Source: a virus. Taken from it: 37,661 bases of DNA. The notes beneath the pieces were generated by a model. That model was not told where the DNA came from. It searched no databases and saw nothing but the letters and a program-made list of their open reading frames with translations. Below, piece by piece: positions 574-30,128 of the stretch (within the stretch, counting starts at the first letter, position 1; each line of letters starts with the position of its first letter). The DNA lies in the IMG/VR virus record IMGVR_UViG_3300024520_000028, positions 1 through 37,661 of that record, one strand, 5' to 3'. Position numbers and translations under genes: made by a program.

Positions 574-786
574 TTATGTTACGTTTGTTCCAGTTAATTT
601 CTTAGCTTCCCCGTTTGCACCCCGTATGTAGATATCATCACCAAACAGACCCCATGTGTTAGCCTTCATAGTGGCCTTTGTCGGTGCTGTCTTAAATATT
701 ATGGGGTTTCCCATGCCATTTTGAATAATATGATCTAACGACTGTTGCGTATCTTTATCTTTTACTCTTTTCCTGAGTTTTTCCAT
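574..786 (-). CDS. Small tail-associated protein, 70 aa
   Basis: I do not recognise a family. The N-terminus is charged and helical (MEKLRKRVKDKDTQQSLDHI). The C-terminal half contains GNPIIFKTAPTKATMKANTWGLFGDDIYIRGANGE, which has the look of a small beta-structured fibre-tip or tail-associated domain. Its start shares one base with the stop of the exported 472-aa fibre-like gene, so the two are translationally coupled. It precedes the gp7-like ejection gene. A virion role is likely from position only. Confidence 0.6.
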   Translation of the reverse strand: MEKLRKRVKDKDTQQSLDHIIQNGMGNPIIFKTAPTKATMKANTWGLFGDDIYIRGANGEAKKLTGTNVT

Positions 787-2204
787 TATTCAAGCTCCGT
801 CACTTTGATGAATGATTTATCAGATATATTAAACAATCTTGCTCCTGTCTGACCATTAACTGTTGTTGTTCCTCCCGCTGATGAACCGGCTCTTATTCTG
901 AATATAACCTCAGCATTGCTTGTTGCTATAAAATCCCACATCAATGGAACCCTTACAGAAACATTTGTACTTTCTTTCTGAGTTGCGAATCCAACTGCCA
1001 CAGATTCAGTCTCAGAATTATTAAACCCAGCTACTATTAATTGCGCTCCTGCTATACTATGAGAAAGCTGAAGTTGAGCTTCAACTCTTATCTTTTTCCC
1101 AGCCTGTGTAGGTACAATTGCGAGTACCATGAATTGTTCGCCCTCTGTATGTTGAACCACAGAATCATCAAGTGGGATAGTAGTTGTAGTTGTAGCAACA
1201 TCTTTGTATGATCTCATTACAGAGTTGACCATACCATTCTCAGAAATATTACTGTATGTATAATTATCAATGTTTCCTGAACCTGAGTTGTTCATATGAA
1301 ACCAACCCATAATACGCCATAATACACCGTTTATACTGGAATATCTAAGCTTACCAGCGGTATTGCTTGAAGTATCGGAAACTGTTGGTGCTGTCGTTGT
1401 AAGTTTAAGTGAACCTGTACTATTAAGCGCAACATATCCATCTGTACTTGTTGCCCTTCCACTTACACCAGTAGCCCAATCTGAAGCTGAACTAAGATTT
1501 AATGTTGTATCTGATATTTTAGAGATACGAGTTGTTCCATGATAAGCTATCCCAGAATCAACCGTTACAACATCAGGAGTTTGAACTGTAAGGCCTAAAC
1601 CATTACGTTGAAAATCTTCCTGATTACTACCCAATGTAATCGAAGTTGTTCTATCATCACGAACATTATTGATGTTATCAACATCTGTACTTACTCTCGC
1701 CATTCTTAAAGAATTAGAAGTAATCGCCGGCTCTGCTGTATCATGTCCTTGTTCTATAAAAGTGTAAGTACCGTCGACAGATAAATCAACAAACGTCCAG
1801 CGATTACTTGTATATGTATGTGCTGTAGCATCTTTTTGCACAAGTTTTTGTTGTAAGGTAGTTGTATTCTTAATAAAAGCACTTCCAGATGAAATATTAG
1901 ATGTTAATGTAGGGTCTGTTGCTGGCAATAAACCAGTATACACCCAATCATTAAATGCACGTCCCCACCTTAACTCAGGGTTGGCATTATCATCTAAGGC
2001 ATCAGCCGTTATTGAATCGTTTTGAAGGTTATCACCTGGCATACTATTAATTGCACCTACCGTCTTAGCTCTAAAATCTTCCAGATGTGCCAGTGTAACA
2101 TCGTTAGTAACGATAAACTGATCGACACTGATTGGCGAAGCATGCACTAACGTTGCCCCAAACAAAACGAATAATCCAACTAACAAAAACTTGATTTTTC
2201 TCAT
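786..2204 (-). CDS. Exported fibre-like tail protein, 472 aa, with signal peptide
   Basis: The ATG at 2204 has AGGAGT six bases upstream. An upstream in-frame extension to 2264 has no ribosome site and overlaps the previous gene, so it is rejected. Residues 1-22 form a textbook Sec signal peptide: MRK, then IKFLLVGLFVLFGATL, then VHA before Ser-Pro. The mature part is Thr/Ser/Asn/Asp-rich and predicted beta, with RTTSITLGSN and a C-terminal jelly-roll-like half, as in fibre and baseplate-associated proteins of short-tailed phages. It lies between the gp10-like nozzle gene and the ejection genes, inside the structural operon. A signal peptide on such a protein is odd, because virions normally assemble in the cytoplasm. 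Confidence 0.75.
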   Translation of the reverse strand: MRKIKFLLVGLFVLFGATLVHASPISVDQFIVTNDVTLAHLEDFRAKTVGAINSMPGDNLQNDSITADALDDNANPELRWGRAFNDWVYTGLLPATDPTLTSNISSGSAFIKNTTTLQQKLVQKDATAHTYTSNRWTFVDLSVDGTYTFIEQGHDTAEPAITSNSLRMARVSTDVDNINNVRDDRTTSITLGSNQEDFQRNGLGLTVQTPDVVTVDSGIAYHGTTRISKISDTTLNLSSASDWATGVSGRATSTDGYVALNSTGSLKLTTTAPTVSDTSSNTAGKLRYSSINGVLWRIMGWFHMNNSGSGNIDNYTYSNISENGMVNSVMRSYKDVATTTTTIPLDDSVVQHTEGEQFMVLAIVPTQAGKKIRVEAQLQLSHSIAGAQLIVAGFNNSETESVAVGFATQKESTNVSVRVPLMWDFIATSNAEVIFRIRAGSSAGGTTTVNGQTGARLFNISDKSFIKVTELE

Positions 2205-2214
2205 ATTTTTACTC

Positions 2215-3747
2215 CTATTTACCGACCCCTTGGCCTCTTTTTTTACCTTTACGAGCAACGTCAAATCCTATGCTCACTAACGAAAGTCTTGTATTTAAAG
2301 TGCTATCTTCAATCTGAAATGCAATAGTTTCACCTCTTGAAAAGTTTATCTTTGGTCTGAATCTGGTTGAAAACTGAGATTGATTAACTATGTTGATGAA
2401 CCCTAAACGTATTGTTTCACCTTTTAAGTTTGCACCTAATATTGTTCCTTCTGGCTGTGTTGATGCCCCTGTCTGCCTACCATCAATCAAATAGCCTATA
2501 CTTAAGTCTAGACCCATATCTGGTTCAAACTGAGGGTATATAGCCGTAACTCTTCCATTTATTCCTATGGCAATAATTGGGATATCTCTTGAACGTAGCT
2601 TTTTAACTATCGCTACACCATCAAAAGAATCCGTCCTATTAGCCCACATAAATGCCCCTATATCTGATCTTCCTATCTGCGTATAAAACTCCTCAATAGT
2701 CGCATCTGTACTCATATAACAGCTCACATTTCGTCCTCTTACCATGTCTATCTTATCTTCTAAGGCATCATAGAAAAACTCAAGATTAGGTTCAGCGTTC
2801 CCCTTTGTTACAATACTAAGCATGTAGTATTTATTGAGGCTATCATAATGCGCTACAGCTTTGTCAAGAAAATCTCTTTTTGTACTAACGTCAATACTCG
2901 CTTTTTCTTCATAAGAAACAAGTCTTGAACTGTTGCCATCCCATGAATATATTTCATAATCATCGGCTAAAAACATCAATGCCTTTTCAACTTTTCTTAA
3001 TGTACGTCCAGCAATGATCCGTCTTTCATCAACCAAAGCAATCTCAAACGTCTCAGCTACAGCACTAATAAGATCGCCTATAACAACAAAAATGCCTTCA
3101 GTGTTGAATATATACACATTATCTTCAATCTTACCTACTGCCCGATTCTTTCCCTTGCCTGAACCAACAATGATTTGTATACTATCTGTTGCATCATCAA
3201 AAACATCAAACTCAAGATTCTTTGATATAAACAAGAAATCTTCACTTATTACAAATGACCTGTCCCTATGCTCAATAATATCTATTGGGTTGACTGGCGC
3301 ACCAGTAGAATCAGTAAACTTTATCTTTAAGAAAGAAAAATCCAAGTTCCCATCATATTTGTATAGATTCTCTCCATCTACAAGATATAATAACGTTTGT
3401 GAGCTTTTCTTAAACATCCAGCTCTCGGGATATGAGTTCTTCTTAAAAGTAACCTGTCTTTCTGTGGCTACCCTGGTCTGATCGTTTACACTCCACATCT
3501 TTCCATCCTGAGTATAAATCAGAGTCACTGGGGCCGTCACCCCAATCTCCAAAGAACTATAGCGAGCAGTCCATCTAGGAATATCGGTTAAAGTCGTGTC
3601 AATGGCTTTTTGCGTACCTTTCATGCTATGATTTCTGCCGTCACGACTCAGAAAGTTTTCACGAACCACAGGAGAGTTAGGATCACCTCCCGATCTCGGA
3701 AACCTTCTATTGATTTTTTTAGTAAATGTAAAAGCTTTATCTGCCAT
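2215..3747 (-). CDS. P22 gp10-like tail nozzle / packaged-DNA stabilisation protein, 510 aa
   Basis: Probably the tail nozzle, which sits under the adaptor ring and plugs the portal channel. The 510-aa length, all-beta look and repeated beta-hairpin segments with Trp-Asp/Tyr-Asp turns (SWDGNSSRL, YKYDGNLDF, GKMWSVNDQTR) suit the beta-propeller nozzle family of P22 gp10 and T7 gp12. The N-terminus has a conserved-looking entry segment (RRFPRSGGDPNSPVVRENFL). It ends in a basic tail (RKGKKRGQGVGK). There is no signal peptide, unlike the fibre genes on both sides, which fits a component assembled on the cytoplasmic capsid. The assignment rests on size, fold impression and context; T7 gp12-like is the main alternative. 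Confidence 0.65.
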   Translation of the reverse strand: MADKAFTFTKKINRRFPRSGGDPNSPVVRENFLSRDGRNHSMKGTQKAIDTTLTDIPRWTARYSSLEIGVTAPVTLIYTQDGKMWSVNDQTRVATERQVTFKKNSYPESWMFKKSSQTLLYLVDGENLYKYDGNLDFSFLKIKFTDSTGAPVNPIDIIEHRDRSFVISEDFLFISKNLEFDVFDDATDSIQIIVGSGKGKNRAVGKIEDNVYIFNTEGIFVVIGDLISAVAETFEIALVDERRIIAGRTLRKVEKALMFLADDYEIYSWDGNSSRLVSYEEKASIDVSTKRDFLDKAVAHYDSLNKYYMLSIVTKGNAEPNLEFFYDALEDKIDMVRGRNVSCYMSTDATIEEFYTQIGRSDIGAFMWANRTDSFDGVAIVKKLRSRDIPIIAIGINGRVTAIYPQFEPDMGLDLSIGYLIDGRQTGASTQPEGTILGANLKGETIRLGFINIVNQSQFSTRFRPKINFSRGETIAFQIEDSTLNTRLSLVSIGFDVARKGKKRGQGVGK

Positions 3748-3767
3748 AATTATTCAATTATCCTTTT

Positions 3768-4781
3768 TTAGTCTGGATTATCATAAACCCTAATCCACTT
3801 AGTTGTACCATTAATTTTAACCCTAATAGCTCCATATTTTGAGCTATCTTCTTTTGTGTCCAGTGAAATGCTTTTAGATCCATCGGTTGTATAATCTCCT
3901 ATGAAATCAATAAATGGAGCGTCTAAGTCTAGTTGCTCTAATTCTGCAACAACCTTATCCCCACTAGTATCTGGTTGAACTATCTTTGTTTGAAACTTGT
4001 TTTCAATGGTTTTAGTGACACCGTTAATTTCTATCATGTTTGTATCAGTGTTGTTAACCTTAACCCTGAATTGAAGTTTTCCGCAGACAGAACCATTAGT
4101 GACATCAGATACATAGCCAGCAATATAAGCGACAGAAGTCATTACCTTAGTTGAATCATTTGATCTAAAATCTATAACCCCAACAAAATCATTATCGGCA
4201 GGGGTATTGCTCTTTTTTATAAACCTAAGATAACCTGAAGTAGCATCAGCATTAGTATTTTCTATCAAGGCAACTGGACCCCATGCACTTGAATCTGACA
4301 CATGAAATCGTTCGGTAGGAATACAATTTATTCCGACATAACCGTTATACTCTAATACTAACTGGAAGGCGTTTAAACCTGTAAGTGCATTTGCTGTTTC
4401 CAAAACCATCCGTGTATCTGAATAGTTCCAGCCAGCAGCATTAACTTGCTGAACATATATGACAGCATCCCTAAGCATGTGTTGATCTTGCTGATTGGTA
4501 GCTGAAAAGAATATAGCTCCCAAATAAGAGCCCATAACAGTTTCTTCTAGCGTACCTACCGTGTTACTATGAGACTTTCTTAACCAAAGAACAGTGTGGT
4601 TATCATAATTTGTTGAGAACGTGTCAAAAATAGAGTATAAACCATCTTTCCCCTCTGCCACATGGAGTCTACTCTCCGCATCTATTCCGATACCAAACTT
4701 TCCATTATCGTAATTCACCTCATGAGCTTCACCCACATAAGTTAAAAATAAACAAAATGCAAATATTAAACTCTTTTTCAT
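3768..4781 (-). CDS. Exported tail-fibre protein with GIG...LHV repeats, 337 aa
   Basis: ATG 4781 follows an AGGGGA box; an upstream in-frame start (4829) would overlap the previous gene by 32 nt and is less likely. Residues 1-19 are a signal peptide (MKKSLIFAFCLFLTYVGEA). Two copies of a tail-fibre repeat follow: FGIGIDAESRLHVAEG near the start and VGINCIPTERFHVSD about residue 150, the (V/F)GI....P..R(L/F)HV pattern common in phage fibres. The C-terminus (KYGAIRVKINGTTKWIRVYD) resembles the conserved last strand of many fibre proteins. It sits between the LamG-like 374-aa gene and the nozzle gene. Host recognition is the likely role. The signal peptide is unexpected. Confidence 0.75.
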   Translation of the reverse strand: MKKSLIFAFCLFLTYVGEAHEVNYDNGKFGIGIDAESRLHVAEGKDGLYSIFDTFSTNYDNHTVLWLRKSHSNTVGTLEETVMGSYLGAIFFSATNQQDQHMLRDAVIYVQQVNAAGWNYSDTRMVLETANALTGLNAFQLVLEYNGYVGINCIPTERFHVSDSSAWGPVALIENTNADATSGYLRFIKKSNTPADNDFVGVIDFRSNDSTKVMTSVAYIAGYVSDVTNGSVCGKLQFRVKVNNTDTNMIEINGVTKTIENKFQTKIVQPDTSGDKVVAELEQLDLDAPFIDFIGDYTTDGSKSISLDTKEDSSKYGAIRVKINGTTKWIRVYDNPD

Positions 4782-4797
4782 AATATATTCCCCTAGC

Positions 4798-5922
4798 TTA
4801 TAAATTATACTTACCTCTTGTACGCACATACATTTCCCACACTTGATCTGCTGTTAATTGATCTCGGGTTATACCCACTGACCCCAGATCACCAGTATAG
4901 ACAAATTCCAGTCCACCGCCATTAGCAATGTTTGCGCCCATTGTAACATCAGCGCCTAAATCTTCCATTCCTACATAACTTGCATCATTATTAGCTGTAC
5001 TTGCTACGGAAACACCATTAACATACATTGTAATACCAGAAGCTGCCGTTGCGCCACCGCCTCCATCATATACAACTGTTAAAAAATACCAAGTAGCATT
5101 TGTTAACGCATCATCTGCAGCTGTAAAAGGAAACTTGTCTACGGATTCATCAAAAAGCAATAATGTAGGCTTCCCAGAACTCAAATAAAATCTATATTCT
5201 CTAGCCGGAGTATTATCGTTATATTTACCTAAAATTAAATCATTGCCAGTCGTGTCTATTTCTACCCAAGCATATATAGTAAACCCATTTGCACCGCCAG
5301 CATCATCAAAAGTAAAATCTGCACTATCAGATACAGACAAATAATCGTCCGTACCATCTAAATCCAAAATCCAAACAAGGCCTTTTTGCAATTGATCTCC
5401 TGTTGTCATAGTCCCATTGTAAGTTGCATCATGATTGTGTGGAGACAAATCTTGCTCAGTTGTTGCCGGTGTTATCCACTCCCAAAGCCCAACAGTATTT
5501 ATAGTTATATCAAGATAATCCCCTGCCAGCATATAAGACATTTGATCGTTAAGAGGATCACCCCAAAAACTACCATTTGGAGTAGAAACTCCCATGTCCC
5601 CTGTATCAGATTCTAGCACTACATCCCCATTAGCATCTGAACTTATCACAATGGAAAACTGAGGATCACTTGTCTGAGCACCCATTATCATCAAGAAAGT
5701 ACCAGCGTCAACAGTTGCGCTTCCCATCTGAAGATTACCCGTAATAGCACCAATAGTCCCAGTTATACTTGCCTGTAAAGCGTTATTTGTTGAATCAAAC
5801 ACTTTATTCAATATAGACTCGGTACTAATATTGCTAGTGTCTATTATGCCGAAACTTGTTGTGGCTGCCATCATCATTGTGGCGACTAGAAACCCAATTA
5901 ACCGTTTTGCTCTTTTTTTCAT
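4798..5922 (-). CDS. Exported LamG/concanavalin-fold fibre protein, 374 aa
   Basis: ATG 5922 has AGGAG nine bases upstream. Residues 1-25 form a signal peptide (MKKRAKRLIGFLVATMMMAATTSFG). A short motif ESILNKVFDSTNNALQASI (residues 35-53) echoes the 123-aa gene at 8980-9351. Residues ~165-365 look like a LamG/concanavalin-A-like jelly roll: LDGTDDYLSV, FTIYAWVEID, ILGKYND, TWYFLTVVYDG, ITMYVNGV and GSVGITRDQLTADQV occur in the usual order. Such domains bind carbohydrate or mediate attachment, so a role in host-surface binding is likely. It lies in the fibre cluster just after a 51-aa exported peptide. Confidence 0.8.
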   Translation of the reverse strand: MKKRAKRLIGFLVATMMMAATTSFGIIDTSNISTESILNKVFDSTNNALQASITGTIGAITGNLQMGSATVDAGTFLMIMGAQTSDPQFSIVISSDANGDVVLESDTGDMGVSTPNGSFWGDPLNDQMSYMLAGDYLDITINTVGLWEWITPATTEQDLSPHNHDATYNGTMTTGDQLQKGLVWILDLDGTDDYLSVSDSADFTFDDAGGANGFTIYAWVEIDTTGNDLILGKYNDNTPAREYRFYLSSGKPTLLLFDESVDKFPFTAADDALTNATWYFLTVVYDGGGGATAASGITMYVNGVSVASTANNDASYVGMEDLGADVTMGANIANGGGLEFVYTGDLGSVGITRDQLTADQVWEMYVRTRGKYNL

Positions 5923-5926
5923 TCGC

Positions 5927-6082
5927 TTAAACTCCTATTATTGTTATTTTGTTAGTTGAAAATACTTTATTCCATATAGAATTAGCTTTGATGTCGCTGA
6001 CATCTGCTATAACGCTTGTTGCTACAATTAACATCAAACTTATGATTACCCCACCAATAAATCCTACAATGTAATGCTTCAT
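5927..6082 (-). CDS. Small exported or single-span membrane peptide, 51 aa
   Basis: Too short for most gene finders, but its ATG overlaps the stop of the coiled-coil gene (ATGA at 6079-6082) and GGTGAG lies just upstream. It begins MKHYIVGFIGGVIISLMLIVATSVIA, a hydrophobic N-terminal segment with a possible signal-peptidase site before Asp-Val-Ser. The tail contains NSIWNKVFSTNKITI, similar to ILNKVFDSTNNAL in the next gene, suggesting a truncated relative of that N-terminus. Function unknown. Confidence 0.55.
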   Translation of the reverse strand: MKHYIVGFIGGVIISLMLIVATSVIADVSDIKANSIWNKVFSTNKITIIGV

Positions 6083-6693
6083 TTCTCACCTCTTTTTAGT
6101 TTAACCGATTCATGTTTAAGTCTTTTTTCTTCTCTTTGGATCCAGGCCTCTCTCTTTGATAGCTCTATATCAGCATTAACTTGTATATCTTCACGCCTAT
6201 TTTGTTGCCTATCTTTCTTTCTAAGATCGTTATCTTTTGCATTAGCCTTATTCTCTCTATCTTTTAATGCGTTACTATCTTGTTCTAAGGCTTTCAGTTT
6301 CAAGTTATAATTCTTTTCTTTCTGTTTGGCCTGTTTAAGATGCCTGTCTGACTCGTTTTTAATCTCTGCGGCTCGTTTAAGCTCATTATCGAATTTCTGG
6401 TGTTTTTTATCTAAATCAGCTTTTAGTCTGGTATATTCTCTGATTTCTTTCTCCATGTTTAGCCTGTCTTGACCTAACTTTGCCTGTAACTCACGATATT
6501 TACCTATCTCAACGCTTGTTTTTTCATTGTTCAACCTCTTGTTAGCAATAAACTGTTTCTGTTCATCGGCTGACTTTTCAACTTGCGCTGTCAAATCTTT
6601 ATGAGATTTTGTTATCGCATCTTCGATCTTTTGCGTATCTTTAAGAAACGCTTTCATAAACGGTTCTAATTTACTTCTGTACTTTTCCATCAT
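6079..6693 (-). CDS. Long coiled-coil protein in the fibre cluster, 204 aa
   Basis: Almost the whole chain is Lys/Glu/Asp/Gln/Arg-rich with heptad spacing and no Pro or Gly runs, so it should form a long parallel coiled coil. It begins MMEKYRSKLEPFMKAFLKDT and ends KLKRGEK. It could be a fibre shaft, an assembly chaperone or a measuring rod; I recognise no family. The start overlaps the end of the 52-aa gene, and the stop overlaps the 51-aa exported peptide. Confidence 0.75.
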   Translation of the reverse strand: MMEKYRSKLEPFMKAFLKDTQKIEDAITKSHKDLTAQVEKSADEQKQFIANKRLNNEKTSVEIGKYRELQAKLGQDRLNMEKEIREYTRLKADLDKKHQKFDNELKRAAEIKNESDRHLKQAKQKEKNYNLKLKALEQDSNALKDRENKANAKDNDLRKKDRQQNRREDIQVNADIELSKREAWIQREEKRLKHESVKLKRGEK

Positions 6694-6829
6694 TTTTTCC
6701 TTTTATAGGCTTCTGTAGTGCGTTTTTAAGCTCTAAAATTATGTGTGCTTCTGATCCCTTAATTCCTGTGCTGTCTATTATTGCTATTAGATTTTTTATC
6801 TGTTCATCACTTAATTCATATTTTGCCAT
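6671..6829 (-). CDS. Small helical tail-region protein, 52 aa
   Basis: ATG 6829 has GGAG seven bases upstream. The product (MAKYELSDEQIKNLIAIIDS, then TGIKGSEAHIILELKNALQKP) has the pattern of short helical proteins often found in phage tail regions: a Glu/Gln-rich first helix, a Gly turn with GSEAH, and an amphipathic second helix. It overlaps the next gene by 23 nt. Function unknown; coding is supported by ribosome site, composition and tight packing. Confidence 0.6.
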   Translation of the reverse strand: MAKYELSDEQIKNLIAIIDSTGIKGSEAHIILELKNALQKPIKGKNDGKVQK

Positions 6830-6847
6830 TTCTATTCTCCTGTTTTT

Positions 6848-7216
6848 CTAGCTTGCAGCTAATACATCAGCCGATTTTGATAAATCAATAATTTCTTCGC
6901 CGACCTTAACCTTTAAGGTCTTTAACTTTTTGTATATATAGTCTCCTGATTGCCACATGAAATCACTGAAAGCCAATGTTTGAATATATAGCTTTTCTTC
7001 TGTCTTTTCGTCTTCATGCCAAACCTCTGCATCTCCACAGCGTACAGAAATATTGTTTATTTTTTGAGCATTAGCATCTCTATATTCCTCTGATTGCCAT
7101 ACTGCAAGCTCTAACCTGCCAGATTTGGTTTTGTTATCTAAGGTTAAATCTGCGATAACATAAGCATCCGTGCAAGTGCCACCTGTCTTTGATGGAAAAT
7201 CAATTTTTAATCCCAT
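6848..7216 (-). CDS. Tail-region protein, 122 aa
   Basis: ATG 7216 has GGAG five bases upstream and starts 14 nt after the stop of the 582-aa fibre gene; the longer in-frame start at 7267 would overlap that gene and is rejected. The protein begins MGLKIDFPSKTGGTCTDAYVI and is mixed alpha/beta, with VSVRC-like strands and a Lys-rich C-terminal third. No family recognised. Its place directly after the main fibre suggests a fibre-associated or chaperone role. Confidence 0.65.
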   Translation of the reverse strand: MGLKIDFPSKTGGTCTDAYVIADLTLDNKTKSGRLELAVWQSEEYRDANAQKINNISVRCGDAEVWHEDEKTEEKLYIQTLAFSDFMWQSGDYIYKKLKTLKVKVGEEIIDLSKSADVLAAS

Positions 7217-7230
7217 GTCTGCTCCTATAG

Positions 7231-8979
7231 TTATGTTAATGTTAATGCTTGTGTTTTTGTTGCCCATATTTTAATGGTAACATCTTCAATATAAACTGGG
7301 CTATTTGAATAATGTATATCTGCCCAAAGACCGTCTGTTGTCCCGTCTAAAGATCGTGCGATATCCCCTCTTCTTAATCTCCAATATTTATTTGCTATAG
7401 CAGTTTCACCATCTGTTCCCACGTTTAAACTAGAACATCTAATAACATCACATTTATCTCCAGTAACTTCTAAACAATATAAATAAGCATCAAATTCTGC
7501 ATTAACATTAGTCGTAAACATATTCACATCAAAAGTAGTTAAAACTAAATCTGGGCTATCATTAAATTGTTCAAAAGATACGTGGTAAACATCCACATCA
7601 GTTAAAGTTAAATTAGTTGTAGATAACGTTACGGTTCCTGTAAACCATTTTGAAGTAATATATGCACCAGTAAAGGAATGTCTAGCATTTCCATTACCAT
7701 CTGTATCTGATCCATCTGTACTTACTGCATCTACTGTAATTGTATCCGTATCTGAACCCACCGTCGCACCAGTATCACGATCCACACTTGTTCCTGTTAC
7801 CGTAATATCTCCTGCCAAATCACTGCCTGCATTGACTACAATCATAATCTTACCAATACCTTTAGTAATAACAATATCAGTAGGAACACTATCTAAAGGT
7901 TGTGCCGTAGCTAAACTTAACAATCCACCATGCAAATTAGTTTCACTTCCTCTGGCGGGGACAGCATCATATGATGACAATACAATGGGGATTGCTGTTG
8001 TAGGAGTTACAAAAGACAAATTGCCTGATCCATCTGTTTTTATAATATCGTCTGCTGATCCATCTGCTGCTGGTAACACCCATATCTGATCCCCTGTTAA
8101 TGCAGGTGCTTCGAAACCTACATAGTTAACTCCTTCATAAAACCTAAGTTCGTTGTTTGAACCACCCACAGATATATTTCCATTTACTTCAAACTTAACC
8201 CCAGTATTTCCAGTAGCTTGACCTATAAACACTTGATCATTACCAGCATCTAGAAAGAAAAGATTAGCATCCCCACTTCCTTCAATCCTATAATCAGCAT
8301 CAAGTCCACTTTCATTAAATACAACATTACCACCAGCAAACCTTACATCACCTGTTCCGGCATCTATCACCCAATTGTTTGTCCCTTGCGTTATATCTCC
8401 AATAGATAACCCGATTGCATTTGTTATGGATCCGCCACCGCCAATATCAGAAGTTACAAGTCTACATCCTATCAAGTTAGTTACTGCTGTTGCACCACTG
8501 GCTTTATTTGCAATGAAAAATCCACCATAAATATTTGTTTTAGTTACTCCTGACCCTGTAGCTATTCCATTAACGCCATAAACATCACCATTTCCACTTT
8601 GTGTTATTTGAAAATCTAAAGCAAACACTGAAGATGCACTATTGGCTGACCCTGTTACATTTAATTTCTTTAACGGATCAACTGAAGCAAAATTACCAAC
8701 AGCTAAAGTTCCTGAAATATCACAATTCCCAACTACGGTTAATTCATCGGATGGTGTTGCTGTCCCAATCCCCACGAACCCATCGCTACCTTGTACAAAT
8801 AAAGCATTAGTTTGAGCTAACGCTGCAAACCTTGTATCTACGTCTATTTCAGTATTATTAACAAGAAGACCTTTATTTAAAGTCAACAATTCCGTTATAG
8901 GATCATTCGAAGCGTCGAGCTTCAAATACCTATTATCGCCTTGACTTCTGCTTAAAGAATTTATTAATTCTAGTCCCAC
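7231..8979 (-). CDS. Tail fibre protein, 582 aa
   Basis: Starts at GTG 8979 with GGGG five bases upstream, immediately after the stop of the 123-aa gene. The N-terminal half contains fibre repeats such as GFVGIGTATPSDELTVVGN, followed by Gly/Asn/Asp-rich beta segments (VFIGQATGNTGVKFEVNGN). About residues 325-480 form a beta-rich region with Thr/Asp-rich strands (TDTITVDAVSTDGSDTDGNG), and the C-terminus (VYIEDVTIKIWATKTQALTLT) is strand-rich. There is no signal peptide. This is probably the main receptor-binding fibre or spike, attached through the N-terminal segment. Confidence 0.75.
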   Translation of the reverse strand: MGLELINSLSRSQGDNRYLKLDASNDPITELLTLNKGLLVNNTEIDVDTRFAALAQTNALFVQGSDGFVGIGTATPSDELTVVGNCDISGTLAVGNFASVDPLKKLNVTGSANSASSVFALDFQITQSGNGDVYGVNGIATGSGVTKTNIYGGFFIANKASGATAVTNLIGCRLVTSDIGGGGSITNAIGLSIGDITQGTNNWVIDAGTGDVRFAGGNVVFNESGLDADYRIEGSGDANLFFLDAGNDQVFIGQATGNTGVKFEVNGNISVGGSNNELRFYEGVNYVGFEAPALTGDQIWVLPAADGSADDIIKTDGSGNLSFVTPTTAIPIVLSSYDAVPARGSETNLHGGLLSLATAQPLDSVPTDIVITKGIGKIMIVVNAGSDLAGDITVTGTSVDRDTGATVGSDTDTITVDAVSTDGSDTDGNGNARHSFTGAYITSKWFTGTVTLSTTNLTLTDVDVYHVSFEQFNDSPDLVLTTFDVNMFTTNVNAEFDAYLYCLEVTGDKCDVIRCSSLNVGTDGETAIANKYWRLRRGDIARSLDGTTDGLWADIHYSNSPVYIEDVTIKIWATKTQALTLT

Positions 8980-9351
8980 TTATACCCCACTCACTCTATA
9001 TGCTGAATCTGCAACCCAAGTAATTCTTATTGAATCAACGCTCAGGTTATTAAAATTAAGTATTTCACCATCTTTTAACGTCACTTCATCTCCAAATACA
9101 ACGCCATCATTTGAAAATGCTACTGTGAAATTACCAGCACCGTCATTAATAATATATCCACAATTAGCATTACGACCTAAAGCTGCATTAAAATCTAACG
9201 TTACGGGACTGTCACCCGTCACAAAAGAGGTATCTTCAAAAAACTCTGGCGTATCACTGACATCACCAATATTGACCCTCAACAAATTGTTGTCATTATC
9301 CCAAACGTCATTTAAGACCTTTTCAATACTAAACCTATTGTCATACCCCAA
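8980..9351 (-). CDS. Tail protein with ILNxV-type adaptor motif, 123 aa, TTG start
   Basis: The start is a TTG at 9351 with a strong GGAGG six bases upstream; no in-frame ATG is near. The N-terminus reads FSIEKVLNDVWDNDNNLLRV, which matches ILNKVFDSTNNALQASI of the exported 374-aa protein and a piece of the 51-aa peptide. The rest is a small beta domain that ends AYRVSGV. It sits between the O-antigen-polymerase-like gene and the 582-aa fibre and may join fibres to the tail. Function is inferred from position. Confidence 0.65.
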   Translation of the reverse strand: MGYDNRFSIEKVLNDVWDNDNNLLRVNIGDVSDTPEFFEDTSFVTGDSPVTLDFNAALGRNANCGYIINDGAGNFTVAFSNDGVVFGDEVTLKDGEILNFNNLSVDSIRITWVADSAYRVSGV

Positions 9352-9352
9352 G

Positions 9353-10513
9353 CTATACCTCCAGTTGAACTTCCATCAAAGCAAACATCGGCACTAAGAT
9401 AACTGCAAATCGTGCCAAATACATTGGAAAATGTGCAAAACTAACCAAAAAGAACACCAATATAAAGCCCGTTAGGGCTAAAGTGTTTGGTTCTTTCACG
9501 CACTTTCTAAACCGCATAACGATACTTCTAAAGTATCCTAATAACAACAAAAACGGTAATAGTCCAAACTCAAAAGCCATCTGAACGTAGATATTATGTG
9601 CATTATCCCACCATTTAAGGAAATTATTCTCTGGTGTATAATAACGAATATACAAATGTTTCTTATTTTTAGTGATATTCCTAAAAGAATCTAGTCCCCA
9701 CCCAGTTATTGGATGAATCTTAGCATCCATCAAGATATTCCGCCATGCTTTCGCTCTATAAAAGACTGTTTGAGACTTCATGTCTAGCTTCAAATAAGCC
9801 ATCCCTGCGATGATTAATACCGCTACTATACCAATCCATAGCTTACGAGATATTCTGTGCCAGAGGATGAATAAGAGCCCAATTATCGCAGATATGAAAC
9901 AGGTTGATGCCTTAGAAAGATAAATTGGGACAAAAAGCAATCCAGCAATCAAGTATGAATGCTTCGTTACACGCGAAGCAAAGACGGGTACAGCTAATGC
10001 CATAATCACGCCCATGAATGCTTTATGTCCCAAAAATCCTGGTGTTTGCCAATTGATGAGACCAAACCCACCGCTTTCGTTCCAAGGTTTAGCCTCGTAT
10101 ATGAAATCTAGGTTACATATCTGTAAAACCATATATATACAATTTATTGCAATTATCCACATAAAGGCTGTTATAAACGTATCAACATTTTTACGCTTAA
10201 AAGATAATTTGGTTAGATAGTACAGTACACACCCATAAAATATGTTAGAAAGGTATACTTTTCCTATGTTAAAGCCGTAATACGTGTATGAAAACACGCA
10301 AAATATCAGAAATAGAGTTAACCAGACGTTTCTTAAAAGAAACCCAAAGATGACAATCACACCCAGCATATAAGCAAAGTTATGCGCTTCTCGTGTCCAA
10401 GTCATCCCTGTTATGGTTAATAACTGAAGAAAACTTAAAACAACTATAAGCGTTCTTATGACTTGTCTTACGTCAAGCTGTTTAAACAATTCTCTGAAAT
10501 CAATAGTTTTCAT
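9353..10513 (-). CDS. O-antigen polymerase/ligase-family membrane protein (Wzy/WaaL/PglL type), 386 aa
   Basis: A polytopic inner-membrane protein with roughly ten hydrophobic segments and one large periplasmic loop (~241-315). The loop has the Wzy_C-type signature: GWGLDSFRN (~271-279), then WDNAHNIYVQMAFEFGLLP (~302-320) with the HN.Y...E.G core (His306). An earlier PGFLGHKAFMGV segment is also typical. Members polymerise O-antigen (Wzy), ligate it to lipid A (WaaL), or transfer glycans to periplasmic proteins (PglL/O-OTase); sequence reading cannot tell these apart. It lies inside the structural operon, two bases after the adaptor gene and just before the fibre genes. Receptor masking (serotype conversion) or glycosylation of exported phage proteins are the plausible roles. 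Confidence 0.8.
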   Translation of the reverse strand: MKTIDFRELFKQLDVRQVIRTLIVVLSFLQLLTITGMTWTREAHNFAYMLGVIVIFGFLLRNVWLTLFLIFCVFSYTYYGFNIGKVYLSNIFYGCVLYYLTKLSFKRKNVDTFITAFMWIIAINCIYMVLQICNLDFIYEAKPWNESGGFGLINWQTPGFLGHKAFMGVIMALAVPVFASRVTKHSYLIAGLLFVPIYLSKASTCFISAIIGLLFILWHRISRKLWIGIVAVLIIAGMAYLKLDMKSQTVFYRAKAWRNILMDAKIHPITGWGLDSFRNITKNKKHLYIRYYTPENNFLKWWDNAHNIYVQMAFEFGLLPFLLLLGYFRSIVMRFRKCVKEPNTLALTGFILVFFLVSFAHFPMYLARFAVILVPMFALMEVQLEV

Positions 10514-10514
10514 A

Positions 10515-11525
10515 TTATCCTGTACTATCTGGCACCTGTGGATTCGGTCTTAAGAACCTACGAGAACCACGTCTTGATGCACTTTGTTGTACCATTCCTA
10601 AGTTTTTAGTTGCATTGATAATTAAACTGCCCTTAAGTCGCTGTTCGTTTCTTTGTGCTAAAACTATCTTATCTGTACTAGCAATCTCCAAGGTATCTAA
10701 AAGCTCCGCCTTACACATAGCAATAATCAATGGATCATATTTATTGTCAAATGGTAAAGTGTCAAGTAGAACTACCTCTGTCAAGCTCTTAATATAATCT
10801 ATATAAACACGGATAGCAGAAGATGGTGTTTCACCAAAGTAAATACGATCATTGAATCTTGCTACATCGTTTGGTGAAGTCTGCGAAGCCGCGGTGGGAT
10901 CAGGGTTTCTTTCTCTGAACAAAGACCAAGGTAATATGTTGTAAAAAGCAACATCGTTTACTCTGTCAGAGAGTTTGATTATCTCGTTTAAATCTGTTAT
11001 CGCTGATGCTGTTCTATCCAATGCGACAGAGAAAAGTTCTGCTACAACGGTCTGTCCTGTGGTCGTTCCATCCGCTATTGTAACGGTTGACGTAGAGCCA
11101 GTAACGAGCGAAACGATCATCAGTCTAGTATTATCGTCCACAAACGCAACGGTTGAGCCTACGGCCGTATTTATCGAAGCAACTACATCTGATATTGAAG
11201 CATCCCCGGAAATATCTATATCATCCGTATCTGTACCATCGATAGATACTTTTATCTTGTCGTTCGCCGTTCCTGTAAACGTAGACTTATCACCAACTAT
11301 CAGCGCCTTAGTAATATCTCTAAACTCTTGGCCTGCTCTTAGCTGAAAACTCCCAATTGCAGTAATTTCTTGCATAATATTATAATCAAAGAACATTTGA
11401 TTTATTTCTTTGAGTTTATCATTTAATATATCAACGAATAGATTGTCTAAATCATCATCGGTAATATCATAGTCAATTCTACGAGTCGATTTTGTTCGTA
11501 TACTACTTACCGTAGTCTTAGCCAT
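10515..11525 (-). CDS. Head-tail adaptor protein (P22 gp4-like position), with inserted beta domain, 336 aa
   Basis: Position after the capsid genes and the overall pattern suit the adaptor that binds the portal in short-tailed phages: helical N-terminus (DITDDDLDNLFVDILNDKL), then residues ~170-300 with FYNILPWSLFRERNP, YFGETPSSAIRVYIDYI, LPFDNKYDPLIIAMCKAELL, matching the Tyr/Pro-rich centre and closing helices of adaptors. Residues ~82-160 look like an insertion: FTGTANDKIKVSIDG, then SISDVVASINTAV, then DDNTRLMIVSLVTGSTS, which is the order of strands and helix of the flagellin-hook IN domain. Head-tail connection is likely. The insertion may be exposed on the virion. Confidence 0.65.
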   Translation of the reverse strand: MAKTTVSSIRTKSTRRIDYDITDDDLDNLFVDILNDKLKEINQMFFDYNIMQEITAIGSFQLRAGQEFRDITKALIVGDKSTFTGTANDKIKVSIDGTDTDDIDISGDASISDVVASINTAVGSTVAFVDDNTRLMIVSLVTGSTSTVTIADGTTTGQTVVAELFSVALDRTASAITDLNEIIKLSDRVNDVAFYNILPWSLFRERNPDPTAASQTSPNDVARFNDRIYFGETPSSAIRVYIDYIKSLTEVVLLDTLPFDNKYDPLIIAMCKAELLDTLEIASTDKIVLAQRNEQRLKGSLIINATKNLGMVQQSASRRGSRRFLRPNPQVPDSTG

Positions 11526-11820
11526 TGGTTTCTCTCCTTATTTCCTCTGTCACCGCATCAATTACATCAAAATCTTTATCTGTCACGGGTTTGTATGTTA
11601 CTAAAATATAATAAGTCCCTTTGTTTTCTAAAAAACCCCATGATTCTTTAGTGCGATTGTTGCTATCAATATCAAGTTTTATCCCTCTTCTTGCAAATCC
11701 TTGCTGTAAATCTTTGGGATAACACGAAAATGGTAATTGCAATTGATCACAATAACATTTAGGCGCTAAAATGATAATAAGCAACAAAACTATCGCAATT
11801 ATACGCTTTTTGATGACCAT
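11518..11820 (-). CDS. Small exported protein, 100 aa
   Basis: Begins MVIKKRIIAIVLLLIIILAP with a cleavable-looking signal peptide ending near CYCDQ. The mature part (QLPFSCYPKDLQQGFARRGI, then DNRTKESWGFLENKGTYYILVTY) has a small alpha/beta look. It ends EEIRRETNG and overlaps the adaptor start by 8 nt. No family recognised. It is one of several predicted exported proteins in the late operon. Confidence 0.65.
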   Translation of the reverse strand: MVIKKRIIAIVLLLIIILAPKCYCDQLQLPFSCYPKDLQQGFARRGIKLDIDSNNRTKESWGFLENKGTYYILVTYKPVTDKDFDVIDAVTEEIRRETNG

Positions 11821-11948
11821 AATCCCCTCGTATACAGTTTTTTAGATTTTCTATACTGATTTACTCTAAAGTTCTTAAATACTTCAGGATGTTCCAACGT
11901 TGCCTTACTTACAAGTTTCCTGATTTGTTTTGCTCGTCTTCCACACAT
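11799..11948 (-). CDS. Small basic protein, 49 aa
   Basis: ATG 11948 has a perfect AGGAGG five bases upstream; a longer in-frame start (11996) would reach into the hairpin upstream and is rejected. The product (MCGRRAKQIRKLVSKATLEH, then a Lys/Arg/Tyr-rich half) resembles the short basic proteins often found between capsid and adaptor genes in podoviruses. It overlaps the next exported gene by 22 nt. Function unknown. Confidence 0.6.
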   Translation of the reverse strand: MCGRRAKQIRKLVSKATLEHPEVFKNFRVNQYRKSKKLYTRGLWSSKSV

Positions 11949-11967
11949 AATATCCTCCTGATTTAAA

Positions 11968-12003
11968 TGCGCTGGCTTAGTTATTGGACAACTCACCAGC
12001 GCA
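11968..12003 (-). terminator. Hairpin after the capsid genes (leaky terminator or processing site)
   Basis: TGCGCTGG (minus strand 12003-11996) pairs with CCAGCGCA (11975-11968), and an inner AGTT/AACT pair extends the stem around a GTCCAAT loop. The 3' side runs into TTTAAATC. It lies 36 nt after the putative decoration gene, where many phages keep a leaky terminator to make capsid mRNA most abundant. The T run is short, so an RNA-processing or stability hairpin is possible. Confidence 0.5.
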
Positions 12004-12038
12004 CACCCCGTGTCCTAGAGTCTTATTTCTTGTTCATG

Positions 12039-12638
12039 TTACTCAGTTCTAAGGAATACTCGTCCTCTTTGTCCTCCAACTGTTGTTTCTAACCAGAAAC
12101 CAGCGTTTCCATGTCTACCTGGTCCTACTGGATTGTATTCTGCACCAGTTCCTTTAACATCACCTGTTCCTAGTGCTGCTCCTGCTGTCGCTGCGGTTGA
12201 TGCATTCAAACGAATCTGTGCAGGGCCGTATGTCTGTAGCCATGTCCAGTTACGTTTTGCATAATCCTGCTGAGCAGTATTTCCAACCTGTCCGGCATCA
12301 CGAGTCAAAGCGGCTCGTGTAACTATACCAGCAACCGTACTATCCGAAGATGTTGTGGTTGTAGTAACAGTAACACCGTCATTAGTTGTCGCACCAGTAA
12401 ACCAAACAACTACACTATCTTTAGTCAATGTATCTCCGAGAAAGTTCTGTCCTACATATCGAACCTTTCGGAATTTCTTGACTGCAAAGTAGTCTGGCGC
12501 ACCAATACTTTTTATTTCACCAGTACCAGCACCAAGTCTGATACCTACACGGTCATCTGTCGCTGCAAATGAACTCGCTACCCCCACCAAAAGCAAGAGG
12601 GCAAGACTTATAGCTACTATCTTTTTGCTAAACTTCAT
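12039..12638 (-). CDS. Putative capsid decoration protein with signal peptide, 199 aa
   Basis: Lies 18 nt after the major capsid gene, the usual place of a decoration or head-stabilising protein, and the mature part suits that: beta-rich, about 170 aa, with VRYVGQNFLGDTLTKDSVVV, a Thr-rich turn, STVAGIVTRAAL and GFWLETTVGGQRGRVFLR. Yet it starts with a canonical Sec signal peptide (MKFSKKIVAISLALLLLVGVASSFA, ~1-25, before Ala-Thr-Asp). Either it is exported and joins the particle late, or it covers the cell surface. Role from context; export from sequence. Confidence 0.7.
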   Translation of the reverse strand: MKFSKKIVAISLALLLLVGVASSFAATDDRVGIRLGAGTGEIKSIGAPDYFAVKKFRKVRYVGQNFLGDTLTKDSVVVWFTGATTNDGVTVTTTTTSSDSTVAGIVTRAALTRDAGQVGNTAQQDYAKRNWTWLQTYGPAQIRLNASTAATAGAALGTGDVKGTGAEYNPVGPGRHGNAGFWLETTVGGQRGRVFLRTE

Positions 12639-12656: not shown

Positions 12657-13667
12657 TTAGGTTACAGAGACATCGCTGGCAAGCCAATGTGCTCTAGGTA
12701 AATTTGTTGTTAAGTTTCCATACCATTCAAACGGAAGCATCTTGTTCATAGATTTGCCTATTCTCTCAAACTTATCTCCCCATTTGCTATTTCCATCTGC
12801 AAGTACCTTGATTATCATATGCTTAGTGTTGATACCATAAACCCTAGAAGGATTAATAGTAGAGTGATCACCAAGAATATCTTCATCAAGTTCCTCAGAC
12901 CCAATCAAAGTTCCTGCTGTTAACTGAAGCATATCAAAACCGATCTTTGCCATCGCATCGTCAGTTTTAAATCTACGCTGTGTTGCCAAGAATCCAGCAA
13001 GTCCAGCCCAGAGATTTTCGGCCATTACGATAAGATCAGGTTTCTGTTTCCTTATTCTTGCTCTAGCGTTAAGCTCGATCAACTTTGCTATACCAGCTTC
13101 AGAACCTATATCAGCTATTGCAGTAGAAAACAAAAGATTCTGCAAAGCTTTTGAACTTGATCTTTGAAGTCCACCAATAGTTCCTGTAGTTGGAGTTGTG
13201 CTGATTATTTGAGGTACAGAAACAGGTTCTGTATCTGCTGGTGTTTCGTTCCACCATGCACCATTGAAACTATTCTCAATAGTGTCTTGTGCTTGTTCTT
13301 TTTGTTCTTGAACAAAGTTCTTTATCGCAGCTCTGCCTTTATTCATCGCTACGTCCAAGTTATTGAGTATTACAGTATCAGTAAAAACTTGAATAGGAAA
13401 TCTCAACCTATTGCTAGGATCCTGAGAATTTACACTAAATTCATCGTCTTTACCTTGCCATTTGGCATTCGTATTCTCGTTTACACGAATAGGATTCCAG
13501 AACTCTAAACCACCAGGAACAACCTTTTTAGAACCCTTTGCATTTAAAAAGGCTGTCAAAAGATTTGAGTTTATAATTCCATCACCGTTTTCACCAAAAT
13601 CAGGCAAATTATGTAATAACAATGTCTCGGTAAGATTGCTTGTTGCATAACTAAAACTTGTAGCCAT
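12657..13667 (-). CDS. Major capsid protein, 336 aa
   Basis: Follows the acidic scaffold gene and precedes the putative decoration gene, as in most tailed phages. The N-terminus (MATSFSYATSNLTETLLLHN) and GLEFWNPIRVNENTNAKWQG look like the N-arm and E-loop of HK97-fold capsids that pair with a separate scaffold. A spine helix (KGRAAIKNFVQEQKEQAQDT) and a large P-domain (GIAKLIELNARARIRKQKPDL, then VMAENLWAGLAGFLATQRRF) follow. The C-terminus (LPRAHWLASDVSVT) is strand-like. No signal peptide. The 336-aa size suits a small podovirus capsid. Confidence 0.85.
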   Translation of the reverse strand: MATSFSYATSNLTETLLLHNLPDFGENGDGIINSNLLTAFLNAKGSKKVVPGGLEFWNPIRVNENTNAKWQGKDDEFSVNSQDPSNRLRFPIQVFTDTVILNNLDVAMNKGRAAIKNFVQEQKEQAQDTIENSFNGAWWNETPADTEPVSVPQIISTTPTTGTIGGLQRSSSKALQNLLFSTAIADIGSEAGIAKLIELNARARIRKQKPDLIVMAENLWAGLAGFLATQRRFKTDDAMAKIGFDMLQLTAGTLIGSEELDEDILGDHSTINPSRVYGINTKHMIIKVLADGNSKWGDKFERIGKSMNKMLPFEWYGNLTTNLPRAHWLASDVSVT

Positions 13668-13713: not shown

Positions 13714-14715
13714 TTAGAATTTCGCGCCTTGAGATTCCATATAATTCATCTGTGCATCTATGTCCTTATCTGAATTACCTGTAGGTTTTGGCATACCGCT
13801 ATCGCCACCAGCACCTTCTCCACCGCTTCGTAACCCCTTTTTAGCTTCATTCCGTTTTTCTCGTCTCTTACCTGTTTTGAGTCGTTCAATGGAAAGCTTA
13901 TGGTTGAGGGTCGTGAAGTATTCTTTTATATCTTCTTGTGTTGCATCGGAGTTTTCATTTAGAAACTTATGCAATGACGGCTCTATATCTGCCTTAAAGT
14001 CTAATATGCCTTCATCGGTTATAGTGTTTTTGATGCTAGCCATTAGACTTTTGCCACTTGATGAACCTTTAATTCCCGCAACATCGTCTTGTAACGGTTT
14101 TAAGACACCTGGCATAAATTCATTTAGTTTCTTTTCAATCAAAACTTCAGCTACACGAACAACATCAGCAATTTCAGTATTTACATAATTCTTGCCGTTA
14201 TCGTCCAACTGATCCATTTTAACACCCAATTTATCAAGAACATAATCAAAATTACTCTTTTGTGCACCCTCATCAGGTACATCGAACCCTTTTGCCTTTA
14301 ACTCTGCATTGATCTTCTCTTGTGTATATCCTTGAGCCTTCATTGACTGTTGGATATACTCAGGTGAAGAGATTGTTTTGTTAAATTTTTCCATCTCCTC
14401 TGTGGGGATGGCTGTCTCTTCTTTAGCTTTCAGCGCGTCTCTAGCTTCGTTCCGCTGTTTCATTATGCGTTGCCAGGCTGGATCGTCGCTGTATTTCTCA
14501 GGAATCTCGGCTTCTTCCTCTTCATCATCACTCTTTTTATCGAGGTCAGTCCCCTCGGATGATTCGGATTCGTCAGTTTCGGCTTCCTTGGTTTCTTCTG
14601 AGGTTGAGGATTCCTCTGGCGTTTCCTGCTCCTGCGATTCATACTCGTCTATCATATCATCCATAGACATGTTTTCATTCGCTTCTTGTTTATCCTCTTG
14701 TGTGTCATCTAGCAT
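13714..14715 (-). CDS. Capsid scaffold protein, 333 aa
   Basis: The first ~85 residues are extremely acidic (DE/S/T-rich: DEYESQEQETPEESSTSEET, then DLDKKSDDEEEEAEIPEKYS), the rest is Lys/Glu/Gln-rich helix, and the last ~40 residues turn basic (LKTGKRREKRNEAKKGLRSG). That charge layout, with a basic C-terminal helix that binds capsid, and its place directly before the major capsid gene are typical of separate scaffolds that guide procapsid assembly and then leave. Confidence 0.8.
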   Translation of the reverse strand: MLDDTQEDKQEANENMSMDDMIDEYESQEQETPEESSTSEETKEAETDESESSEGTDLDKKSDDEEEEAEIPEKYSDDPAWQRIMKQRNEARDALKAKEETAIPTEEMEKFNKTISSPEYIQQSMKAQGYTQEKINAELKAKGFDVPDEGAQKSNFDYVLDKLGVKMDQLDDNGKNYVNTEIADVVRVAEVLIEKKLNEFMPGVLKPLQDDVAGIKGSSSGKSLMASIKNTITDEGILDFKADIEPSLHKFLNENSDATQEDIKEYFTTLNHKLSIERLKTGKRREKRNEAKKGLRSGGEGAGGDSGMPKPTGNSDKDIDAQMNYMESQGAKF

Positions 14716-14771: not shown

Positions 14772-15014
14772 TCATTCAATATTAACCGTTTCTTTATTGT
14801 CACCAAAATTCTTCTGTATCTTAAGTTTCTTGCCTTTTTCAAATGTCAAGTTGACTTGACGGTTTACTGTACCCACAACATTATCGCCTTCAACACTACA
14901 GATACCAGTAACCTTAACACGTACCTTATCGCCCTTCATCTGGACAAACGTACTCTTATTATATCCACAACCGCTTAGCACAAAACAGATCAAAAGTATT
15001 GTTGTGTAACGCAT
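14772..15014 (-). CDS. Small lipoprotein, 80 aa
   Basis: MRYTTILLICFVLSGC is a type II signal peptide with lipobox LSGC and lipidation at Cys16. The mature part has FVQMKGDKVRVKVTGICSVEG, a small beta structure. It shows partial similarity to the lipoprotein at 34256-34471 (V.M.G....V...G..S.EG), so the two may be paralogues. Phage lipoproteins of this size can block superinfection by binding receptors, or act as outer spanins. Which applies here is not visible. Its ATG shares a base with the stop of the preceding gene. Confidence 0.65.
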   Translation of the reverse strand: MRYTTILLICFVLSGCGYNKSTFVQMKGDKVRVKVTGICSVEGDNVVGTVNRQVNLTFEKGKKLKIQKNFGDNKETVNIE

Positions 15015-15396: not shown

Positions 15397-15752
15397 TACT
15401 TTCCTCCCATTGTTACGCTGAATCGTTTCTTGTTATCGTATTTTTTTATTTTCTCAACCTTACGCTTAATACCTTCTTTAACCTTAGCCTTTATGTTTGG
15501 TGAATTTAAAGGGTCTCGATATCCTTCCTTCTCCCAGGTCTTCCAGTTATCTACCTCAACACCTTTATCTGTCACCCAGCCTTTACCAATACCAAACCCA
15601 TCACGACCACCTGTTATTCCTGGTGTATTAAATACTCTCGAGAGTTCACATCCACATACCTTACAGTATTCAGAAGTATCACTCTCTGCCATAGGTTTAC
15701 ACTTCTCATAGTCAAGTTTACACTTCTCGCATTTATACTCATATATCGGCAT
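15396..15752 (-). CDS. FmdB-like zinc-ribbon protein, 118 aa
   Basis: The N-terminus MPIYEYKCEKCKLDYEKCKP with a second pair CKVCGC (about residues 31-36) is the FmdB/CxxC zinc-ribbon signature. The rest is a basic helical tail. Such genes are frequent beside portal and scaffold genes in phages; their role is unclear, perhaps regulatory or nucleic-acid binding. It shares its first base with the portal stop. Confidence 0.75.
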   Translation of the reverse strand: MPIYEYKCEKCKLDYEKCKPMAESDTSEYCKVCGCELSRVFNTPGITGGRDGFGIGKGWVTDKGVEVDNWKTWEKEGYRDPLNSPNIKAKVKEGIKRKVEKIKKYDNKKRFSVTMGGK

Positions 15753-20336: not shown

Positions 20337-20712
20337 TTATTTTCACATCAACTTTCGTATAGTGATTATGTACTGAGTTATCTATTAATGGTGTATCTCT
20401 CCATCCAGCAATATTCTTTAAAGTGAATATAACCATTGAAGGTACAAGCCCTCCTGTTGCAGCACCTTCGATAAGTATGGTGACAAATGTTTGCTTATAT
20501 ATTTTTAAGGCTTTGGAAAAGTATTCATTCTCAGTGAAATTCTTGTTAGCAGAAAAAACATCTACAGATAACATATGCTTAGTGGCAAACTTGTTTAAGA
20601 ATGGGAATGGTTCTTCATAGAGAAACTCAAGCAACTGATCAGCTAGTTTTTCAACAACTTCTTTAGTGTACTTAATTGGTCTGCCCATTTTCTTCTTTTT
20701 TTCTACTGCCAT
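20248..20712 (-). CDS. terS: Small terminase subunit, 154 aa
   Basis: Placed just before and overlapping terL. It begins MAVEKKKKMGRPIKYTKEVV, the basic GRPxKYT lead-in to a helix-turn-helix found in many phage small terminases and DNA-packaging proteins, followed by a helical core (FATKHMLSVDVFSANKNF, then KQTFVTILIEGAATGG). It should recognise the packaging site and control TerL. Its ATG shares a base with the previous gene's stop. Confidence 0.8.
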   Translation of the reverse strand: MAVEKKKKMGRPIKYTKEVVEKLADQLLEFLYEEPFPFLNKFATKHMLSVDVFSANKNFTENEYFSKALKIYKQTFVTILIEGAATGGLVPSMVIFTLKNIAGWRDTPLIDNSVHNHYTKVDVKINDNTKLPPTHKSGNRISGQEQIPSISSGT

Positions 20713-21993: not shown

Positions 21994-22476
21994 TTACCTC
22001 CCTTTCTCCAATATTTTAATAAGTTCTTCCTTCGTTCCAAAATCTATTATGTTCTTCCTCCAGCAGCATTCAGGATGCTTAAAGAAATGAACTTTTCTAT
22101 GGTTTGCTAGGTGCAGAGCAACTTCACCAGCCGGAAGCACAACGACAATATCAGCTTCAAGTCCAGGTTCTAACCCTGAATCGGGAGTTGCCATACCTTT
22201 GACTATTGTAAGCTTGCCACTTATTTGCATATGTCCCATTTTGATTAATATATCTTCTGGATAGTTTTCATATACGTTTTTCTCTTTAAGAAGGCGAAAC
22301 CAGCGCCAATGCTTACCATGTTTAAGCGGTCTTTTTGCTTTGCGCCACTTGGTTTTTATTGTAAGGTGTGCATCGTTTTCATCTATCCAAGTCAAAAGCG
22401 TCCTGACGAAAGGATATATTATTTCGGGAGGGTTCTGCTTACATGTCATGTTATCGTAATATGCAACTTCAATCAT
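21994..22476 (-). CDS. Hypothetical protein, 160 aa, next to the CMP-sugar synthetase
   Basis: Coupled to the cytidylyltransferase (overlap 22473-22476). It begins MIEVAYYDNMTCKQNPPEII; the middle is basic and Trp-rich (KAKRPLKHGKHWRWFRLLKE), and the end contains LEADIVVVLPAGEVALHLAN. No motif recognised. The coupling hints at a shared pathway but is not evidence of one. Confidence 0.6.
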   Translation of the reverse strand: MIEVAYYDNMTCKQNPPEIIYPFVRTLLTWIDENDAHLTIKTKWRKAKRPLKHGKHWRWFRLLKEKNVYENYPEDILIKMGHMQISGKLTIVKGMATPDSGLEPGLEADIVVVLPAGEVALHLANHRKVHFFKHPECCWRKNIIDFGTKEELIKILEKGR

Positions 22477-30085: not shown

Positions 30086-30128
30086 GCTAATTTAGTATTT
30101 CTTTTTCCAATTAGATTTTTAAAAAATA

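Follow-up and report, generated by a model that had tools for sequence, protein, structure and literature searches.

Predicted Sec export of decoration-like and fibre-like proteins in a lineage of uncultivated short-tailed phages

The DNA analysed here, referred to as the window, corresponds to positions 1 to 37,661 (37,661 nt) of the linear viral record IMGVR_UViG_3300024520_000028 from IMG/VR. Sequence and profile matches revealed that the minus strand carries the structural module of a short-tailed phage, with genes in the Caudoviricetes-type order terminase, portal, scaffold, capsid, adaptor and nozzle, and the same order was present in relatives. The terminase (19035-20336) showed distant relation to those of Pelagibacter and many other phages, with homology to 1759 phage records. 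The portal (15752-17587; phrog_156, E 2.4e-10) and major capsid protein (12657-13667; phrog_9953, E 2.8e-24) were identified by profile, whilst the scaffold-like (13714-14715), head-tail adaptor-like (10515-11525) and nozzle-like (2215-3747) proteins were assigned by position and conservation. Directly after the major capsid gene lies a gene for a putative capsid decoration protein (12039-12638), and between this and the adaptor gene a small, apparently exported protein of a PFxCYPK family is encoded (11518-11820) that has homologues in 10 genomes. The remainder of the module encodes a polytopic membrane protein with a Wzy_C domain (PF04932) of the O-antigen ligase/O-oligosaccharyltransferase superfamily (9353-10513), a 123-aa protein (8980-9351), a 582-aa fibre (7231-8979), a 51-aa protein (5927-6082), a LamG-domain fibre (4798-5922; PF13385, E 1.7e-13), a fibre-like protein with a KFGIGIDAESRLHV motif (S74-fibre-like; 3768-4781), a 472-aa fibre-like protein adjacent to the nozzle (786-2204) and, after it, a conserved 70-aa protein (574-786), all on the minus strand. 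Two short lipoprotein-like open reading frames with a lipobox, at 14772-15014 (LSGC) and 34256-34495 (LQGC), are possibly spanin components. When cultured phages were searched by tblastn there was no relative of the window capsid, decoration, Wzy_C or 123-aa proteins, similarity of the LamG fibre to Rhizobium phages was confined to the lectin domain, and for the 472-aa family the sole match was a stretch of 53 aa in MW202497. GTDB genome contigs, scanned twice in search of a host or prophage, yielded no capsid or nozzle relative.

The original prediction, that four structural-looking genes of this module start with signal peptides, was confirmed with a rule-based heuristic scorer that assesses n-region charge, a hydrophobic core of 8-18 residues and small residues at -3/-1, with a cut-off of 12. 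All four products had the features of candidate Sec and signal peptidase I substrates, namely a positive n-region, a hydrophobic core and an A-x-A-like cleavage site. With the caret marking predicted cleavage, the N-termini comprised MKFSKK, IVAISLALLLLVGV and ASSFA^ATDD in the decoration-like protein (cleavage after residue 25, with a signal peptide coding region of 25 codons at 12564-12638, minus strand), MKKRAKR, LIGFLVATMMMAA and TTSFG^IID in the LamG fibre, MKKS, LIFAFCLFLT and YVGEA^HEV in the 3768-4781 product, and MRKIK, FLLVGLFVLFGATLV and HA^SPIS in the 472-aa protein (cleavage after residue 22). The LamG fibre (score 12.3, with Gly at -1) and the 3768-4781 product (13.0) were the weakest single calls. 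The small proteins at 5927-6082 and 11518-11820, listed as exported in the original prediction, were likewise called, and as anticipated no signal was called for the nozzle, capsid, portal or 582-aa main fibre of the window, nor for its scaffold and adaptor. None of the four proteins carries a lipobox cysteine or a lysis domain, and they were therefore rejected as lipoproteins and as SAR endolysins.

In control sets the scorer recovered 8/8 textbook signal peptides of E. coli, with PhoA just under the cut-off of 12, and the known outer-membrane protein Lom of lambda (1/1); a set of 86 structural proteins drawn from T7, lambda, P22, HTVC111P, HTVC202P and MW202497 gave no call, and 481 internal Met positions gave only 4. 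Some ordinary N-terminal membrane segments were also called (3/9 Wzy_C rows); because such true membrane segments are flagged, conservation is the main evidence that the signals are genuine. The signal-bearing ATG starts of the four genes are preceded by purine-rich Shine-Dalgarno-like sequence, a clear AGGAG in two and AAAGGGG and AGGGG in the others; later starts, from which the product would lack the signal, all have poorer sequence of this kind.

Scans of IMG/VR identified ten uncultivated viral relatives, giving 11 genomes with the window: 3300031227_000154 (G001), 3300031227_000371 (G002), 3300035698_003535 (G003), 3300025065_000014 (G004), 3300031227_001067 (G005), 3300031227_003593 (G006), 3300020215_000038 (G007), 3300033148_003642 (G008), 3300042731_004234 (L054, G009) and the distant fragment 3300002223_000131 (L056, G010). 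Their capsid proteins are from about 52% down to about 20-25% identical to that of the window, and the common gene order is capsid, decoration-like protein, small exported protein, adaptor, Wzy_C, fibres, nozzle, fibre and 70-aa protein. Among relatives whose capsids are similar (G002, G004 and G006), the terminase N-termini are of two kinds, suggesting exchange of terminase genes. The signal-bearing pattern was kept across the clade, so that what had been noted for one genome is a trait of a lineage and the observation is stronger than first stated. In these related genomes, which are not phylogenetically independent, a signal was called in 13/13 distinct copies of the decoration-like protein (all 11 genomes, down to 20-25% capsid identity), in 7/7 homologues of the nozzle-adjacent fibre and in 8/10 members of the PFxCYPK family, the two uncalled members appearing exported by eye, against 0/69 for the terminase, portal (0/11), scaffold (0/11), capsid (0/11), adaptor (0/10), nozzle (0/7) and 70-aa protein (0/7). 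Large fibres of relatives likewise scored as signal-bearing.

These counts bear on whether the signals could be chance hydrophobic N-termini or start-site errors, an explanation that the calling of some membrane proteins by a heuristic scorer might favour. Signals were called in 29/31 rows of the three exported families (the decoration table having 14 rows for 13 copies, since two genomes have two copies and the truncated L056/G010 copy is listed twice) compared with 0/69 for core proteins, and this together with the phage and internal Met controls and the ribosome-binding sites at signal-bearing starts makes the explanation highly improbable overall and excludes it for the decoration and nozzle-adjacent fibre families. 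As far as sequence can tell, the signals are genuine and inherited, and they are confined to the peripheral proteins.

The decoration-like protein provides the most extensive comparison. Homologues adjoin the major capsid gene, with one 87-aa gene between the two in L056, and the L056 homologue, from the genome with 20-25% capsid identity, was a family match by profile (hhalign probability 94%) and also has a signal. Mean identity between copies was 41% in the signal peptide and 44% in the mature part, and n-region charge, the h-region and an A/S/V-x-A site (A at -1; A, S or V at -3) were kept in 12/12 full-length copies. The signals have therefore diverged like the mature part and yet retained their features, indicating selection on function rather than on sequence. 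Conserved mature sequence starts right after the cleavage site. The latter two observations also bear on a reading in which the N-terminal helix is an uncleaved anchor, either an inner-membrane tether recruiting capsids to a membrane assembly site or a helix carried into the particle. All of these proteins have a single N-terminal hydrophobic helix and membrane-associated assembly would resolve the compartment problem; however, these short helices are of the kind seen in signal peptides, and the invariably small residues at -1 and -3, with conservation resuming at the mature start, weaken the anchor, one of three readings originally offered, to the point where we consider it quite unlikely. 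The decoration role itself is putative and is based on position and conservation. A profile search of PDB with the family gave no match, searches of PHROG and Pfam gave no significant match (the L044 copy weakly matched phrog_38844 of unknown function, E 0.0045), and AlphaFold models (9 and 11 sequences) had pLDDT values of 41 and 47. In many copies the C-terminal sequence is CFxxCE; cysteine is absent from the window copy. The gene is tandemly duplicated in two relatives (L005 6127-7359; L029 488-1717), each copy having its own signal peptide.

In the LamG fibre the signal is followed by an N-terminal domain, ILNKVFDSTNNAL, which also forms the start of the 123-aa protein at 8980-9351 and the mature part of the 51-aa protein at 5927-6082; the latter is thus a predicted signal peptide plus a stand-alone copy of the fibre N-terminus. 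The 123-aa protein has no signal, so this NKVF/NDVW-type domain occurs in the window both with and without one. The signal-less 582-aa fibre has a short N-terminal stretch resembling residues 67-104 of a signal-bearing G004 fibre. The window proteins themselves match only LamG, and homology to virion fibre families was found in signal-bearing proteins of relatives: a 1250-aa G004 protein matched phrog_6002 (virion structural protein, 5e-22) and phrog_4636 (tail spike, 8.8e-19), a 958-aa G008 protein matched phrog_4636 (9.1e-10) and the G008 homologue of the 472-aa protein (L046 9995-11080) matched phrog_11355 (tail fiber protein, E 1.5e-8).

These matches are relevant to the possibility that the exported proteins are not part of the virion and are instead fibre-like proteins of the periplasm or cell surface, acting for example by receptor masking against superinfection or against re-adsorption of progeny to debris. 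Sec export is what the signals most simply indicate, LamG and fibre domains bind glycans, and signal-bearing receptor-masking phage proteins are known, such as T5 Llp and lambda-type Cor. It is harder to reconcile with the tail spike and virion structural family matches, with the gene order directly after the capsid and nozzle genes kept in all genomes and with duplication of the decoration gene in two of them; moreover, a set of several fibres plus a capsid-adjacent protein exceeds what masking needs. On balance a non-virion role, which takes in the coating of the cell surface originally suggested, appears rather unlikely but possible.

Textbook tailed-phage morphogenesis is a cytoplasmic process, and the earlier contention that export is hard to fit with assembly confined to the cytoplasm is upheld by signal-bearing peripheral proteins set against a core at 0/69. 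Sec export of the decoration-like and fibre proteins is well supported at the level of sequence, with translocation and cleavage in the cell being its expected consequences. The interpretation we favour, to which we would assign an even chance, is that in this short-tailed phage lineage the outermost virion proteins are Sec-exported, cleaved, held in the envelope and bound to finished cores at lysis. The decoration-like protein and the tail fibres or appendages would be made with cleavable signal peptides, exported by the Sec translocon of a presumably diderm host and trimmed by signal peptidase I, whilst portal, scaffold, capsid, adaptor and nozzle would remain in the cytoplasm and form a DNA-filled core particle. 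The exported proteins would fold, and might be modified, during periplasmic holding, and once membranes break at lysis they would meet the finished cores and probably be incorporated by binding to them. Soc/Hoc among decoration proteins, and P22 gp9 among tailspikes, are examples of proteins able to bind a particle that is already complete. Of the readings originally proposed, the one in which proteins join particles at lysis or later is the best fit, since every exported class is one whose addition could come last; the retained set comprises the proteins that must assemble around scaffold and DNA. Two considerations count against this interpretation, namely that not all fibres can be exported, given the 582-aa fibre without a signal, and that dilution would burden attachment after lysis. 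Candidate payoffs of export would include keeping receptor-binding proteins off intracellular glycan precursors, oxidative folding and glycosylation.

The last of these is suggested by the Wzy_C protein, which is encoded in the same module in 8/8 genomes covering the site and in which the PF04932 domain was found in 5/5 members tested. The PF04932 superfamily also includes O-antigen ligases and polymerases. The sole match of the Wzy_C profile to PDB was an oligosaccharyltransferase (9rmk, E 1.6e-5), and a 5-row alignment shows no variation at the Arg and His that are candidate active-site residues. A second glycan-related gene in the phage, at 22473-23174, encodes a nucleotidyl-sugar enzyme, a CTP_transf_3 cytidylyltransferase (PF02348, E 3.5e-21) of CMP-sugar synthetase type. 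Periplasmic glycosylation of the exported proteins by Wzy_C is, from these features, possible. In its fullest form the proposal is that export serves modification, with Wzy_C transferring a host lipid-linked glycan to Ser/Thr of exported virion proteins to give a glycan-coated particle, which would explain why export occurs and can coexist with attachment to finished cores at lysis. Against this, there are known phage Wzy proteins that alter host O-antigen instead, and the PglL-specific PglL_A model (PF15864) gave no match to the Wzy_C members at E 0.1. PglL_A is also absent from PilO, genes for PglL-type protein O-OTases in bacteria typically adjoin their target genes, which would suit the location of this one, and WaaL and PglL are indistinguishable by simple sequence comparison, a further point against the proposal (PMC3643930). 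Since every genome has both traits, the linkage between Wzy_C and export is not separable by comparison. We regard modification as the purpose of export as unlikely. The composite scheme, in which virion assembly is split between a cytoplasmic core and exported, cleaved and possibly Wzy_C-O-glycosylated decoration and fibre proteins, with an infectious particle arising only after mixing at lysis, is a serious possibility that falls somewhat short of an even chance.

Comparison with known systems places the decoration-like protein nearest to lambda gpD, T4 Soc/Hoc and phage L Dec, which it resembles in small size, in a gene beside the major capsid gene and, by position only, in a candidate outer-shell role; however, those proteins are cytosolic and lack signal peptides (lambda D was scored and not called), whereas the protein described here is signal-bearing and has no sequence or structural match. 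The podovirus proteins T7 gp17 and P22 gp9 are similarly late-attaching receptor-binding appendages, and several signal-bearing proteins of the relatives match tail spike or tail fiber PHROGs, yet T7 gp17, P22 gp9 and the lambda fibres did not score as having a signal peptide. Use of the host Sec pathway is shared with SAR or Sec endolysins, spanins, Lom, Bor and Llp, which are lysis, exclusion or lysogenic-conversion proteins rather than candidate virion parts. The Wzy_C protein is, like PglL/WaaL/Wzy family members (PF04932), a multi-pass membrane protein with a Wzy_C domain and invariant Arg and His, and differs from PglL in being shorter, in giving no PglL_A match and in being encoded inside a phage virion module. 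The filamentous phage M13 offers virion proteins with signal peptides, pIII and pVIII, that are assembled at the envelope, although M13 is an unrelated ssDNA phage extruded without lysis whereas the present phages are tailed dsDNA phages with a cytoplasmic core. The open-access literature yielded no account of a tailed phage whose decoration or fibre proteins bear Sec signals. If correct, our interpretation describes a lineage whose outer proteins take the Sec route, so that the final stages of assembly could wait until lysis and phage particles could undergo chemistry available only in the envelope, disulphides and glycosylation among it. For annotation, a signal peptide should not exclude a phage protein from being considered structural.

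Three further features of the window were noted. The 20712-21305 product, encoded just upstream of the terminase region, begins with a hydrophobic, signal-like stretch, contains one segment rich in Gly/Ala and another rich in Lys, and was negative by the scorer. A further product with two CxxC motifs, encoded at 27987-28562 far from the structural genes, also seems to be exported (internal start MKIMRHIPTIILILMLLASFKADA). A short open reading frame at 30119-30338 consists of an 18-base tandem repeat in about 10 copies, with frames reading GSGYGYGS and ALAMAMAL.
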